This document shows, piece by piece, positions 30,275 through 35,922 of a stretch of DNA of 64,000 nt. Below the pieces are notes generated by a model. That model saw nothing but the letters and a program-made list of their open reading frames with translations. It was not told where the DNA came from and made no database searches. The translations under genes were made by a program, and so were the position numbers. The DNA lies in contig CAJTEE010000004.1 of assembly GCA_910575275.1 (NCBI GenBank), positions 270,287-334,286 on the forward strand. The letters run 5' to 3'. This DNA comes from Lachnospiraceae bacterium (GTDB lineage Bacteria; Bacillota; Clostridia; Lachnospirales; Lachnospiraceae). The stretch's first letter is position 1; every line of letters begins with the position of its first letter.

Positions 30275-30820
30275 TCAGTTTAAGCTTGCCAAGTTCTCAT
30301 TCATCTTCTTTAAGATAGCTTCCTTTTGCTCTGAAGTTACTGTCTTGTCTTTTACAGCTTGATCCAAAAGCTTTGTTACTTCTTCCATATCCTTTTTATA
30401 GTTTTCTGCTGTCAATTCCTCAGCGCTCTTTGCCAGATCCGGCCTCATAACGATAGTAGGATTGAAAGCGACTATAGTGGTTTCCGTGGATACCATAAAC
30501 GCGCCTTTATAGATGACAAATTCCCCTTTTCCGTTGTCTGCCTTCAACTTTGCCAAGTCTGCTTCCATAGCCTTGACATCCTCATGATCAGCGCCCATGT
30601 ACTTTTTAATCTGATTGACGGATTCTTCGTATTCTTCCAGAGTGTAAAGCTCAAAAAGGCCTCCCAAAGTAGGGTCTTCCACCGGATTCTGGGCAGCCTG
30701 GGTCTGGACAGTGGATGGCTGTGGCGCGGACGCTGCCCCGTAAGCAGTTGTACCGGCTGACATAAGCACAAGACACATGATTCCTGTAGCCGCAAAATTT
30801 CTCTTTGTATAATTTAACAT
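30275..30820 (-). CDS. Small secreted protein paralogous to the M56 sensor domain
   Basis: A 181-residue protein with a signal peptide (hydrophobic 11-25, likely cleavage after TTAYGA). The mature domain starts at residue 49 with DPTLGGLFELYTLEEY and contains the block LKADNGKGEFVIYKGAFMVS then TETTIVAFNPTIVMRP. It aligns without gaps over 133 residues with the C-terminus of the M56 protease at 31486-32841 (about 78 identical by hand). Codons begin after AAAGGATTCATATT. Its promoter carries two dyads of the type BlaI proteins bind, so it is probably the repressed output gene of the BlaI/M56 pair. No known enzyme motif is seen; it might be a ligand, decoy or protected target of the sensor. Confidence 0.85.
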   Translation of the reverse strand: MLNYTKRNFAATGIMCLVLMSAGTTAYGAASAPQPSTVQTQAAQNPVEDPTLGGLFELYTLEEYEESVNQIKKYMGADHEDVKAMEADLAKLKADNGKGEFVIYKGAFMVSTETTIVAFNPTIVMRPDLAKSAEELTAENYKKDMEEVTKLLDQAVKDKTVTSEQKEAILKKMNENLASLN

Positions 30821-30882
30821 AATATGAATCCTTTCTTTTTATTATTTTTATCTTCACGGGCGCTCACCCTTTTAAGAAAAAA

Positions 30883-30902
30883 TAGACTATTGTGATAGTC
30901 TA
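30883..30902. promoter_or_regulatory. BlaI-type operator O1
   Basis: TAGACTATTGTGATAGTCTA: perfect 8-bp arms around TGTG. It lies just downstream of the -10 element of the secreted-protein gene. Confidence 0.7.
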
Positions 30903-30910
30903 TCTAAGCA

Positions 30911-30941
30911 ATAGATTATCACAATAGTCTGTATGTGTCAA
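30911..30941 (-). promoter_or_regulatory. Promoter of the secreted-protein gene overlapped by operator O2
   Basis: Minus-strand TTGACA (30936-30941), 17-base spacer, TAATCT (30913-30918). The second dyad AGACTATTGTGATAATCT (30930-30913) covers the spacer and -10, sharing its core with O1. Binding would block RNA polymerase. Confidence 0.7.
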
Positions 30942-31046
30942 CGGATATTTTCTGACGAATCTCTTAAGAATTCTAAAGGCAGATTATAGCCGCATTACGA
31001 TAGGGCAGCACCAGGCAAAGTCAAGCAGCCGGTCATTGACACTGAC

Positions 31047-31064
31047 AGACTACTATAATAGTGT
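31047..31064. promoter_or_regulatory. BlaI-type operator O3 before the repressor gene
   Basis: AGACTACTATAATAGTGT matches the O1/O2 core at about 14 of 18 positions and follows a TTGACA at 31036-31041. It suggests autoregulation of the repressor-protease operon. Confidence 0.55.
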
Positions 31065-31121
31065 ATAAGAAATATGCCATAAGCAGCAGGCATAAAATCA
31101 GTATACGAGGTGAACACAGAT

Positions 31122-31481
31122 ATGGAAAAAATACTGTTTGATTCAGAACGGAAAGTAATGGAAGTAATCTGGGAAGAAGGAGATATTACGGCTAAGCAGA
31201 TTTCCCTGATCTTACATGACTCCACCGGCTGGAGTAAGAATACCACCTACACGGTCATTAAAAAATGTATTCAAAAAGGCTTTATTGAACGCCTGGAACC
31301 AAACTTTATCTGTAGAGCTCTGCTTTCCAAAGAACAGGCGATACAGGATGATACCAGGGAATTCGTAAACCGTGTCTTTCAAGGCTCTGTCCCCATGCTG
31401 TTTTCAGCCCTGCTGTCCCAGAAATCCCTGTCAAAAGAGGAATTGGAAGAATTAAAACAAATGATCAATGAAATGGAGTAA
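31122..31481 (+). CDS. BlaI/MecI-family repressor
   Basis: A 119-residue winged-helix repressor: DSERKVMEVIWEEGDITAKQ, SKNTTYTVIKKCIQKGFIER, then the C-terminal dimerisation helices (LSKEELEELKQMINEME). The ATG at 31122 is set by GAGGTG nine bases upstream; a GTG at 31110 lies inside that site. In the family the linker between DNA-binding and dimer domains is cut when the cognate M56 sensor is triggered. It overlaps no gene but is followed within 5 bases by the M56 start, so the two form an operon. Confidence 0.92.
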   Translation: MEKILFDSERKVMEVIWEEGDITAKQISLILHDSTGWSKNTTYTVIKKCIQKGFIERLEPNFICRALLSKEQAIQDDTREFVNRVFQGSVPMLFSALLSQKSLSKEELEELKQMINEME

Positions 31482-31485
31482 GCCT

Positions 31486-32841
31486 ATGAACCTGTTGCGG
31501 ATGAGCCTTTCGGCTTCCTTTCTGATTCTGGCTGTCATCGCTTTTCGGAAGTTTTTTTCTTCCAAAATGCCCAGAACCGTTTTTTTGTTTCTCTGGATGC
31601 TTGCCTGGTGTAAGCTGATGATTCCCATACCAACCGGCTTCTCTGTACCAGTGACCAATGGATGGTTCGAAAAAATGCCGGATATCGCCACTGCCTTGTC
31701 CATTCCGGCAACAGCCTTGCAGACAGCGGGGACAAAGCCGGATTTTCCATGGATGATCTTAAAAATCCTTTGGTCTTGCGGCGCTCTGGCTTTCAGCCTG
31801 TATTTAGGCTGTCTCCATGTTCTCAACCTGAAGAAATACCGCACGGCAATTCCTTTAAAGGAATCTTCCTGGATTCTCATCTGGCTGAAACGGAAATGTT
31901 TCTTACACGGAATTACCGTTGGGATTTCGGACGAGATTGATTCCCCATTAACCTACCGTATCCTTTTTCCGGTAATCCTGCTTCCAAAACAGACGGACTG
32001 GAAGGACAAAGAGAGTATAAAACTGATCCTGGAACATGAAGTGGCTCATATCCGGCACCTGGACACGCTGAAAAAGCTGTGCCTGGCCGCGGCCTGGGTC
32101 TGCCACTGGTTCAACCCTTTGGTGTGGCTTATGGTTGCCTTTGCCAGCCGTGACATGGAACTGGCCTGTGATGAAGCGGTGATTCGGGCCGTGGGAAGCG
32201 ATAAACGAAAAACTTATGCCAGTTTACTGGTTGGACTGGAGGCAAAGAGAGCCGGGATCGACCTTCTGGCTTCCGGTCTGGGACAAAGCCTTATGAAAGA
32301 GCGTGTCAATCATCTCATTCACATGAAAGAAAAAAATTCCTTTACAGGAATCGTGTTGACTATTGCTGCCACCATAAGCTGCGTCGCGGTCTACAGTGCT
32401 GTGCCTTCTGGCGCTTTTTCTATGAAATCCCTGAAGAATGACCCGACCCTTGGAGGGATTTTTGAATTGTACTCGGTGGAAGAGTATCAAAGGATTGTAG
32501 ATACTGTAAAAGAGGACAGAGGGGAGGGAGATCCGGATGTCTTAGCCATGGAGCGGGACCTGGAGCGTCTGAAAGCTGACAACGGAAAAGGGGAATTTGT
32601 CATCTATAAAGAGGCGTTTATGGTATCCACGGAAACCACTGTAGTCGCTTTCAACCCAACCATTATCATGCGGCCGGAGCTTGTAAACCGGAATACACCT
32701 CTGACTGCTGGAACTTACCAAAATGATATAAAAGATGTGACAGAGATTCTGGAAGACGCGGTGGCAGACGGATTTTTAACAGCAACCCAGAAAAAGAGAA
32801 TGTTAGACAAAATGGAGGAGAATCTGGCCGGACTGGAATAA
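31486..32841 (+). CDS. M56-family (BlaR1-like) sensor protease with a non-penicillin-binding sensor domain
   Basis: A 451-residue protein. The start at 31486 is set by GGAG seven bases upstream. N-terminal helices span residues 1-110. The zinc motif HEVAH lies at residues 184-188 on a cytoplasmic loop (LILEHEVAHIRHLDTLKKLC), with the downstream MELACDEAVIRA typical of M56. A last transmembrane helix at about 288-310 leads to a 133-residue extracytoplasmic domain from residue 319 (DPTLGGIFELYSVEEY). BlaR1 and MecR1 carry a beta-lactam-binding transpeptidase-like domain here; this one instead carries a homologue of the secreted protein encoded divergently. It presumably cleaves the adjacent BlaI on signal. 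The stimulus is unknown. Confidence 0.9.
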   Translation: MNLLRMSLSASFLILAVIAFRKFFSSKMPRTVFLFLWMLAWCKLMIPIPTGFSVPVTNGWFEKMPDIATALSIPATALQTAGTKPDFPWMILKILWSCGALAFSLYLGCLHVLNLKKYRTAIPLKESSWILIWLKRKCFLHGITVGISDEIDSPLTYRILFPVILLPKQTDWKDKESIKLILEHEVAHIRHLDTLKKLCLAAAWVCHWFNPLVWLMVAFASRDMELACDEAVIRAVGSDKRKTYASLLVGLEAKRAGIDLLASGLGQSLMKERVNHLIHMKEKNSFTGIVLTIAATISCVAVYSAVPSGAFSMKSLKNDPTLGGIFELYSVEEYQRIVDTVKEDRGEGDPDVLAMERDLERLKADNGKGEFVIYKEAFMVSTETTVVAFNPTIIMRPELVNRNTPLTAGTYQNDIKDVTEILEDAVADGFLTATQKKRMLDKMEENLAGLE

Positions 32842-32965: not shown

Positions 32966-33665
32966 ATGTTACACAAAGATCATTTCATATTTTATCAAAT
33001 TGCGGAAAAATTCCTGCTTGAAATTTATGAAAGGGATTGGAAAAACGGCGTCCTGGCTCCCTTTTTTGAATATGCATACGCATCCTTTTCTTACTGGATG
33101 GATATCTCCTATTCTTATAAAAACCGCATTTGGAAGTATGACGGTGAGATTGTGGCATTCTGCTTTTATGAAAATCCGGTGACTTACATTTATTTCTGCC
33201 TGAAACCCGGATATGAGAATCTGGCGCTTGAAATGATGACATATGCTGATAAACATATGCCTGTGAACGGCAGCAACATACAACCCATTCTATTTGGCGG
33301 GCAGGAGGCATTGATGTGCGCTGCGCGGCAGTTGGGATATCGCCAGAAATCGGAACACTGGGATATGCAGTACGATTTCGTAAACGAATTGGATTTCCCG
33401 CTTCCAAAAGGCTTTCACTCTGTGAACCGCCAGGATATGGAAAAAGTGAGCAAATGCTGTTTTAAAGGGTTTGACCATGAACAGAGCGAAAGCCCATGGA
33501 ACCACTTTGCACCATACCCAAATACCGACATAAGGGTCTCGCCGCTGTCGATTTGACAGAAATGTATCGGAGAACAAAGGCATTAGGCGCACCCCATATG
33601 ACAGGCGGATCGAACGGATTTTATAAGAAAACTGGATATCTTTCTGCTGTAAAATGGACATTTTA
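32966..33665 (+). pseudogene. GNAT acetyltransferase remnant
   Basis: Starts MLHKDHFIFYQIAEKFLLEI and runs as a GNAT-like protein through WKYDGEIVAFCFYENPVTYI. A deletion plus frameshift near 33530 removes the acetyl-CoA-binding loop region. The C-terminus resumes in another frame as LTEMYRRTKALGAPHMTGGS, NGFYKKTGYLSAVKWTF, ending at 33665. Loss of the central fold makes activity unlikely. Confidence 0.7.
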
Positions 33666-34674: not shown

Positions 34675-35922
34675 CTAATCATTCCTTCCATATACTTCTT
34701 TCCACTGGTCTTCGGTCAGCCGATCGGAATGCCACCATGGTTCATAACCGCCCTCCGGAAAAATGATCCGATTTGATACATACGCAAAACCGCCGTTGCC
34801 AAGGGGACGAACCACTGTTTCATGGGTATATGCCCTGGAGGTATTTTCCTCCGGGTATACGGCATTCACGGTCAGGGTTAAGGTTCCGTCACTGTTTTCC
34901 ATATAACTGACCACTTCCGGGTATGGAATCTCCGGATACTCAACCTCATAAACCCCTCTCGGCCTGTATTCATACGTTTGATCTTCCGGTAAATAGGATG
35001 CCTTTTTCCGCAGCTCCTCACGGTCTATTTGGAAATGGCTTTCAATAACATGTTCAAATATCTCTGCCGGTATCCTGTAAACAGCCCCCTCATCGAAATC
35101 GTCATAAGATAGAAAAGGAACCGGCTGTTCATAGACACCGCCATAAAACCTGTCGAACAAATCATAAAAATCCAGATTTCCAAAATCATCTTCGCTCCAG
35201 TCCGTAAGAAATAGATTATTTCCCCCATACCCCACTGGTAGCAAATACATTCTGTTTAATTCCCTACATGTATCGTCTAATGGCTGAACCCTCAACGCCG
35301 TATGTTCTGGTTCCTCACTGAGAGAAAGTACATAATAGCTTTCGGAATAATAACTTCCCTCAAACAGCAGATAACCTTCCTTTGTATACTCCCACGATTC
35401 TGCCGGATAACTTACTCTGCCGATGTTTTCCAAAATCCCGTTTCTATACTGATCATATTCTCTGACAACATTCACGGCGCCATTTGCTGTACATAGATCA
35501 TATTTTATCAATCCTCCGGAACCGGTGACTACGAATATGGTCAGCTCTGCCTCCTGTTTTTTGTCTACTGACCCGCAAAAACCTAAGACCTGTTCCGAGC
35601 CCGCCATGTCAATCTGATTTCCTTCATCTATCGCAACATAACCATGTTCCCCAATCCTTTCAACGATACTTCTCATCACTTCCTCAGTTCCAACCGTTCC
35701 CGTCTCTGCCGCCCGGTCATAAATATCACGATAAAGTCCAGCAATGCATTCCGCCTCAAAATCATGACTTTCTTCCCTTTGTTCTTTGTACGAATATTCC
35801 TCACTGACTGCTGCTTCTTGCGGTATCTCCTGACTTTCCTCCGCTTTTTGGTCACATCCGGCCACTATAAAAAGAAAGGCACTTACAACAATCAACAGCC
35901 TTTGTTTTCTCATTTTTTTCAT
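34675..35922 (-). CDS. Lipoprotein of a Clostridia-specific family (DUF6070-like), intact
   Basis: A 415-residue protein with a signal peptide and lipobox (VSAFLFIVAGC, lipidated Cys at 23). It has an N-terminal helical block (ECIAGLYRDIYDRAAETGTV) and a long beta-rich region with many Tyr and Trp residues. The assignment to DUF6070 is from memory of the family and is tentative. It is the only intact copy among four in this window (remnants A, B and C). Outer-surface location is expected; the function is unknown. Confidence 0.7.
   Translation of the reverse strand: MKKMRKQRLLIVVSAFLFIVAGCDQKAEESQEIPQEAAVSEEYSYKEQREESHDFEAECIAGLYRDIYDRAAETGTVGTEEVMRSIVERIGEHGYVAIDEGNQIDMAGSEQVLGFCGSVDKKQEAELTIFVVTGSGGLIKYDLCTANGAVNVVREYDQYRNGILENIGRVSYPAESWEYTKEGYLLFEGSYYSESYYVLSLSEEPEHTALRVQPLDDTCRELNRMYLLPVGYGGNNLFLTDWSEDDFGNLDFYDLFDRFYGGVYEQPVPFLSYDDFDEGAVYRIPAEIFEHVIESHFQIDREELRKKASYLPEDQTYEYRPRGVYEVEYPEIPYPEVVSYMENSDGTLTLTVNAVYPEENTSRAYTHETVVRPLGNGGFAYVSNRIIFPEGGYEPWWHSDRLTEDQWKEVYGRND

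Follow-up and report, generated by a model that had tools for sequence, protein, structure and literature searches.

A BlaI/M56 gene module of Lachnospiraceae whose presumed sensor domain recurs as a predicted secreted protein

The module and its copied domain

A BlaI-type repressor gene and a gene for an M56 (BlaR1-type) membrane metalloprotease lie side by side in a stretch of 64,000 nucleotides from a Lachnospiraceae bacterium (GCA_910575275.1, contig CAJTEE010000004.1), referred to here as the window. A third gene, S, which encodes a stand-alone protein predicted to be secreted, is oriented divergently from both (Table 1; positions are counted from the first letter of the window). The outer domain of the M56 protein aligns to the DPTLGG domain of S over 133 residues without gaps and with 59% identity. 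With the leader of S included, 92 of 180 residues are identical to the C-terminal part of the M56 protein (BLASTP, E 8e-54). The pairing of presumed sensor domain and predicted secreted protein is real and far beyond chance. An earlier note on this DNA had described the three genes, the HEVAH motif, the divergent layout and about 78 identities in 133 gapless positions, all of which were found where it had placed them; its M56 numbering began at an ATG six codons in, and its residues 319-451 correspond to 325-457 here.

Table 1. Features of the module in the window, with the basis of each assignment
Feature	Positions	Strand	Basis
Gene S, stand-alone, predicted secreted protein, 181 aa	30275..30820	-	ORF (open reading frame) list; 59% identity to M56 outer domain
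DPTLGG domain of S, residues 49-181	30278..30676	-	alignment to M56 outer domain; AlphaFold2
Gene-conversion tract in S, codons 95-119	30464..30538	-	72/75 nt identical to M56 gene
Leader of S, Sec-type signal peptide by eye, residues 1-29	30734..30820	-	aligned to last M56 transmembrane segment in BLASTP
Operator-like dyad 1, GACTATTGTGATAGTC	30885..30900	.	0 mismatches
Operator-like dyad 2, 29 bp from dyad 1	30914..30929	.	pattern scan
TTGACA -35-like box, S promoter, 12 nt before dyad 2	30936..30941	-	read from sequence
TTGACA -35-like box, blaI promoter, 12 nt before dyad 3	31036..31041	+	read from sequence
Operator-like dyad 3, before blaI	31048..31063	.	pattern scan
blaI-type repressor gene, 123 aa	31110..31481	+	PF03965, E 1.6e-24; MecI/BlaI structures by sequence
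M56 (BlaR1-type) membrane metalloprotease gene, 457 aa	31468..32841	+	PF05569, E 1.5e-38; BlaR1 8exp profile match
HEVAH zinc motif of M56 protein, residues 190-194	32035..32049	+	alignment of 23 proteins
Predicted last transmembrane helix of M56 protein, residues 292-311	32341..32400	+	structure model, alignment
M56 outer domain, presumed sensor, residues 325-457	32440..32838	+	alignment to S
Gene-conversion tract in M56 gene	32578..32652	+	same nucleotide comparison

The repressor matches the Pfam family Penicillinase_R with 86.9 bits (cut-off 22.6) and MecI of Staphylococcus aureus by sequence (E 1.4e-11), and stays below the NCBIfam cut-off for CopY/TcrY copper repressors (67.1 versus 121.95 bits). 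The protease reaches 133.1 bits in its Pfam family (cut-off 31), and its membrane part matches the S. aureus BlaR1 structure 8exp in a profile search (E 8e-23); the NCBIfam cut-off for blaR1_generic is not reached (68.8 versus 400 bits). Residues H190, E191, H194 and E231 are invariant across 23 aligned proteins including that of the window. The helices of the M56 protein, and hence the position of the outer domain after the last of them, were placed by a structure model (predicted local distance difference test, pLDDT, 73; predicted template modelling score, pTM, 0.54). The BlaI/BlaR1-like layout with a paralogue of the secreted protein in the sensor position, as the earlier note had it, is strongly supported at the level of sequence.

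The S domain is modelled by AlphaFold2 with a pLDDT of 92 and a pTM of 0.82. The earlier note could name no function for it, and Pfam and NCBIfam likewise give no family. Among the libraries searched, neither an enzyme family nor a binding fold of known kind was found, and no known transpeptidase or inhibitor family, which by that note would have refuted its proposal, was matched. Against the Pfam model DUF2680 (PF10925), the window protein gave no match and one of 28 members matched at E 0.044.

The module resembles BlaR1/MecR1-BlaI/MecI of S. aureus (8exp, 1okr) in the HEXXH domain of the protease, its membrane part, a C-terminal domain predicted to follow the last helix, the adjacent BlaI-type repressor and the divergent output gene with shared dyads. 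It differs in the outer domain and in the output. Beta-lactam-binding sensors carry the motifs SxxK and K[T/S]G; the outer domain of the window protease has neither and showed no relationship to the penicillin-binding fold. S contains a single SxxK (SEQK, residue 163) and no K[T/S]G. In place of a lactamase or transpeptidase, the output duplicates the outer domain itself, and the BlaI cleavage pair is not conserved.

When the whole genome was searched with the domain up to E 10, four places were found, namely the window pair and a second pair on another contig (C6), whose S is 91% identical to that of the window. In the second module, S lies about 4 kb from its blaI, and genes for an ArsP-like permease, an ECF-transporter-like protein, a Crp-type regulator and a sigma factor with its neighbour are found in between. 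The genome encodes seven M56 proteins. For the five without a DPTLGG domain, no copy of their own C-terminal part was detected among ORFs of at least 70 aa in the surrounding 20 kb (19 kb for contig C6).

The genes flanking the window module (32966-33556, 34675-35922) resemble those flanking the second module (L012 919-2190, 12424-13320) by eye. They encode an acetyltransferase-like protein, shorter in the window, and a lipoprotein; by this likeness a larger segment seems to have been duplicated. Just upstream of the second S (L012 10221-11530), an ECF-type sigma factor gene is accompanied by a gene whose product has a single hydrophobic segment, and the same two genes occur near the module of A. 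muris (L138). This neighbour protein has no Pfam match; on C6 it looked like a relative of the domain core by eye, which was rejected at a profile-comparison probability of 0.5%.

Operator-like dyads before S and blaI

The 289-bp gap between S and blaI contains three BlaI-type dyads of the pattern GACTATNNNNATAGTC (0, 1 and 2 mismatches), two before S and one before blaI. This pattern was derived from the gap itself and matched six times in the window versus 1.5 times on average in 100 shuffles, none of which reached six. A sigma-70 scan gave eight sites versus 4.3 expected and did not list the TTGACA boxes, as it needs a second hexamer 16-18 nt on. With a wider pattern, AGACTAYNNNNRTAGTCT, and at most one mismatch, seven sites were found in the whole genome: each of the two modules has three, and the seventh lies where another blaI gene starts. 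Since about two sites are expected by chance under uniform composition, it is their positions that matter rather than their number. At up to two mismatches, the pattern matched 18 times per strand versus 38 times for the reversed control, and the weaker sites are therefore considered background.

Other genomes show the same placement. Across L013-L046, a set of 34 loci of which some overlap on the same contig, 63 sites fall within the 11,461 bp that precede S or blaI, versus nine in 408,261 bp elsewhere. A site was present for 18 of 19 long stand-alone ORFs and for 25 of 26 full-length cognate blaI genes; the two cases lacking one are L039, where the ORF is a piece of M56, and the L041 blaI gene, which begins at most 34 bp after S. 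All 33 intact S-type genes in a list compiled by hand, many of them near copies from related genomes, are preceded by two or three dyads spaced 28-32 bp apart. A TTGAC sequence is located 12-13 nt before the first dyad in 31 of these, the exceptions being L014 (TCGAC) and L041 (where the stretch ends). Among the listed blaI genes, 15 of 16 have the dyad and 14 the TTGAC box as well.

A blind search of 391 genomes of the class for the exact tandem-dyad pattern matched in ten genomes, versus two for the reversed pattern. The 15 matches represent 14 places, two overlapping ones in one genome (G022) being counted once. At seven places the pattern is directly before or touching the start of a blaI gene; S-type genes follow it at three places, one in the genome of the window and two in genome G593, and other genes at four. 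Dyads before the repressor's own gene and before its output gene, the arrangement typical of BlaI/MecI, are thus present in the sequence, and we regard them as putative BlaI operators.

Dyads of this type were also observed outside the module. In the window's genome, one lies at the blaI start of another blaI/M56 pair (L003; G000 C4:126642-126659), so that cross-talk among BlaI paralogues is possible. In A. muris (L136 5901-5948), tandem dyads precede a different blaI/M56 pair with a 546-aa M56 protein. In L173, L183, L184 and L187, tandem dyads precede genes for membrane, lipoprotein-like and secreted-looking proteins; no blaI match was found within 3 kb, and these genes may be remote outputs of other BlaI/M56 systems. 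An 18-mer, AGACTACTCTGATAGAAT, half resembling the operator, occurs identically in several genomes close to the module, between genes that look lipoprotein-like and flavodoxin-like by eye (L012 15826, L138 6094, L140 4838). It was not counted as an operator near the second module because its arms pair poorly.

Distribution and coupled evolution

The module is more widespread than the window shows, and its distribution is patchy. Scanning of genome contigs for the DPTLGG domain gave 34 loci in 23 assemblies (hand count), which, judging by isolate names, are mostly mouse-gut Lachnospiraceae-like bacteria. Strong matches were obtained in two of 299 genomes of the family (three more weak) and in three of 392 genomes of the order (one more weak), the window's genome being included in both. 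Weak matches at class level were resolved as DUF2680- or SHOCT-like proteins, unrelated enzymes and the CD630_05490 family. No relative was confirmed on viral contigs and none was found on plasmids, the search covering neither the phage record collection nor PADLOC and PHROGs.

The earlier note had asked whether the M56 fusion is always accompanied by a stand-alone copy near BlaI. Both genes are intact in 15 of the 23 assemblies (hand tally), often a few kb apart, and the three genes are in this sense kept together in other genomes; constancy does not extend to two genomes with the M56 fusion only, nor to modules with decayed S. Single cases comprise an S with a split M56 gene (L014), an S at a contig end (L027), an M56 gene on a 5.6-kb contig (L030), and S plus blaI with no M56 gene found in the locus and an adjoining recombinase-like gene (L025). 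In distant lineages, the leader of S is of lipobox type by eye, and S is located upstream of blaI and M56 on the same strand (L041, L042). A second, different blaI/M56 pair (BlaI of about 128 aa, M56 of 729-734 aa) was observed between S and the cognate pair, or adjoining the latter, in L021, L022, L023, L028, L029, L031, L033, L035, L036 and L040.

A comparable layout is found in a distant genus. In the family of G593, 14 of 71 genomes matched, and the eight strong matches all belong to one Clostridioides-like genus. All eight genomes carry blaI, M56 and one or two genes like CD630_05490 in this order on one strand, and each of the 13 secreted genes has tandem dyads 32 bp apart. CD630_05490 (structure 6n7m) is a remote relative, with homology that is clear for the N-terminal hairpin only; it differs in lacking the DPTLGG start and the C-terminal helix pair, and its M56 neighbour contains no recognisable copy of it. 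One of the loci (L166) contains the 6n7m stretch letter for letter and therefore stems from Clostridioides difficile or a very close relative. The C-terminal helix pair of S is shared with DUF2680-type secreted proteins (profile-profile probability 96%, 37% identity over 43 columns). The E-values of the single profile comparisons with CD630_05490- and DUF2680-type sequences overstate the likeness, because the same profile had picked these sequences; the blaI-M56 neighbourhood of the CD630_05490 family played no part in that picking. The DUF2680-like loci have no blaI or M56 match, but at about 3 kb each they are too short to exclude one.

The stand-alone genes do not group together in the domain tree (46 rows, 16 stand-alone and 30 M56, several long branches being flagged). 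A single clade of stand-alones was rejected (approximately unbiased test, p-AU 0.00012), and at least three changes between the stand-alone and the M56 state are forced by well-supported branches. One stand-alone row and one M56 row, both from 11,494-base contigs, pair with support of 100/98. Because the stand-alones do not form one clade, the gene would either have arisen several times or have been overwritten by its partner. Two sequences that appear chimeric by eye (P0015 and P0122, S front and M56 back) may be real conversions or assembly artefacts of short metagenome contigs and were not used as evidence.

The leader points to the source of the stand-alone gene. When a hidden Markov model of the last M56 helix was applied to the leaders of DPTLGG-group S proteins, 17 of 24 were matched by at most two of 96 control leaders. 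The Clostridioides-type leaders scored above all 96 controls in 13 of 13 cases (15.6-28.5 bits; best control 12.7, with 94 controls in the main test and two scored separately, at 2.3 and -0.6), and in a single comparison, one M56 last helix and one such leader shared 16 of 36 residues (E 5e-08). The stand-alone gene probably originated from a C-terminal piece of the M56 gene, whose last helix became a signal peptide or, in other lineages, a lipoprotein signal.

That S is a functionless tandem duplicate, retained by chance with its dyads copied along, appears very improbable. The occurrence of two modules in one genome, with neighbour genes alike by eye, and the decay of S in three modules would fit such an origin; it does not account for tandem dyads kept in all 33 listed intact genes, the same layout in eight of eight genomes of a distant genus, or the state changes forced by the tree.

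In the window pair, a recent overwrite is visible in the nucleotide comparison. The tract is identical at 72 of 75 nt, versus 58% outside it, and was reproduced in none of 20,000 permutations. It spans codons 49-73 of the compared stretch, where all 22 conserved codons are free of synonymous changes; over the whole comparison, 38 of 75 conserved codons differ. The tract of the window S gene is found in the L017 M56 gene too (60/60 nt). A core hairpin kept nearly identical by conversion would hold an interface matched, as expected if S were a homotypic partner, that is, a ligand or co-receptor of the M56 outer domain with positive or density-dependent feedback. Under this assumption, however, genomes with an M56 fusion but no stand-alone match would be without a ligand, and we consider it improbable.

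A possible decoy circuit

BlaR1 binds its ligand outside the cell and cleaves BlaI directly inside, which leads to derepression, and its sensor is cut off behind the last helix by signal peptidase, according to one account (PMC9834060). By analogy, the M56 outer domain would sense a signal, presumably from the cell envelope, and the M56 protein would inactivate BlaI by cleavage or otherwise. Loss of BlaI from the dyads would release both blaI-M56 and S, and the exported S would be a detached copy of the receptor's own sensor; its gene resembles one for just such a shed piece. With a ligand or surface in common, S would then vie with the receptor for the signal and weaken the response, closing the circuit. 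Negative feedback by a decoy is preferred because a shed sensor that keeps the binding core of the receptor is best placed to compete. We tentatively read the module as such a closed BlaR1-like circuit with the detached sensor domain as output, possibly a decoy; its most speculative elements are the negative sign given to the feedback and the kind of signal assumed.

S may instead be a conventional target gene product that binds what the receptor senses and neutralises or uses it, as a beta-lactamase does for BlaR1; the shared domain would then reflect a shared ligand, feedback arising only through ligand removal. This is in line with the precedent of BlaR1, where sensor and outputs act on one ligand class (PMC9834060), and with the recurrent pairing of the domain and its conversion. 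By eye, the leaders of S in other lineages are of lipobox type, which suits an effector held at the surface more than a decoy that diffuses. Neither an enzyme family nor a binding fold of known kind was found for S in the libraries searched, however, and in the window it consists of little beyond the outer domain, a leader and a short linker. We consider an effector sharing the ligand a possible but somewhat doubtful explanation, nearly as likely as a decoy, a homotypic partner being less so, and commit to the decoy.

Sensors that resemble the proteins under their control are known from other systems. In the BlaRI system of C. difficile, the BlaR1 sensor is homologous to the class D beta-lactamase that it induces; both partners bind beta-lactams, whereas the domain of the window is of another kind and not a known enzyme. 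The outer modules of RsgI anti-sigma factors of Clostridium thermocellum resemble modules of secreted proteins that these receptors control. RsgI differs in its anti-sigma mechanism, in lacking BlaI and M56, and in having cellulosome genes and thus many enzymes as outputs, unlike the bare sensor copy found here. No publication on this architecture, and none linking CD630_05490 to BlaI/M56, was found in a search that left subscription literature mostly outside.

For the Clostridioides branch, some expression data are available. CD630_05490 (136 aa, with a signal peptide) was listed among hypothetical proteins in culture supernatants of both strains 630 and R20291 (PMC3841139). A study of WalRK places it third among the tabulated genes that WalR overexpression induces (log2 3.87 and 4.51) and gives -1.84 upon wal knock-down (PMC9210968). 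Its presence in supernatants and its induction by WalR suggest an envelope role. The same study mentions another BlaI-BlaR-like pair of C. difficile (cd630_23900, cd630_23890), which shares its transcript with a gene predicted to encode a peptidoglycan hydrolase (PMC9210968).

Several observations weigh against the decoy circuit or its generality. In the accessible text of the WalRK study, a knock-down plasmid for CD630_05490 was built, knock-down or overexpression of a 13-gene regulon panel, whose passage does not name CD630_05490 as a member, left a WalR reporter unchanged, and single regulon genes, again without CD630_05490 being named, gave no Wal-type defects (PMC9210968). The outer part of the Clostridioides-type M56 proteins did not match the domain profile, and in one direct comparison only the leader aligned. 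As this part is no recognisable paralogue of the secreted protein, a decoy that strictly depends on a shared fold cannot account for every member. The shared fold on which the earlier note based its feedback accordingly applies to the window pair, with its 59% identity, and is not a rule across the family; that the sensor would detect whatever S binds, or S itself, is plausible.

Other such points concern the Lachnospiraceae modules themselves. Two genomes (L037 and L038, which correspond by contig number and position to G913 and G882) keep the M56 fusion and blaI and have no stand-alone match, which argues that S is dispensable for persistence of the receptor; each gave one match, with 10 of 13 and 10 of 11 first-look candidates scored, and the G882 contig starts about 140 bp before the dyads. 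S is decayed beside an intact M56 gene in L031/L044 and L035/L045 (genomes 1xD42-87 and A. muris), and C65_88 contains a third module with both genes broken while an intact pair exists elsewhere. Conversion was significant in one of ten within-genome pairs, that of the window (L013, p 0.08; the other eight, p at least 0.16), and not in the L042 and L041 pairs (p 0.53 and 0.06); the tract may be neutral. For the leader of the window S, nine of 96 control leaders score as well or better. The Asn-Phe pair at which S. aureus BlaI is cleaved reads Ala-Leu at the aligned positions, so that the cleavage step cannot be transferred by motif and may differ in detail.

M56/BlaI pairs with an unknown signal are common, and to our knowledge the workings of BlaR1-type receptors are understood for hardly any signal other than beta-lactams. 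The broadest version of the decoy reading would make the module a bacterial soluble decoy receptor, in which one dedicated output, an exported copy of the sensor, was excised repeatedly, matched by gene conversion and placed in a negative loop on an envelope signal across Clostridia, the WalR-induced CD630_05490 included; taken as a whole, we hold this to be rather unlikely. S itself, a small, soluble and confidently modelled copy of a presumed sensor and likely the main target gene, could be used directly in a search for the ligand. The module also offers a regulatory hypothesis for CD630_05490, whose structure is solved but has no assigned function, and a case of sensor and output coupled through repeated duplication or replacement and through gene conversion.

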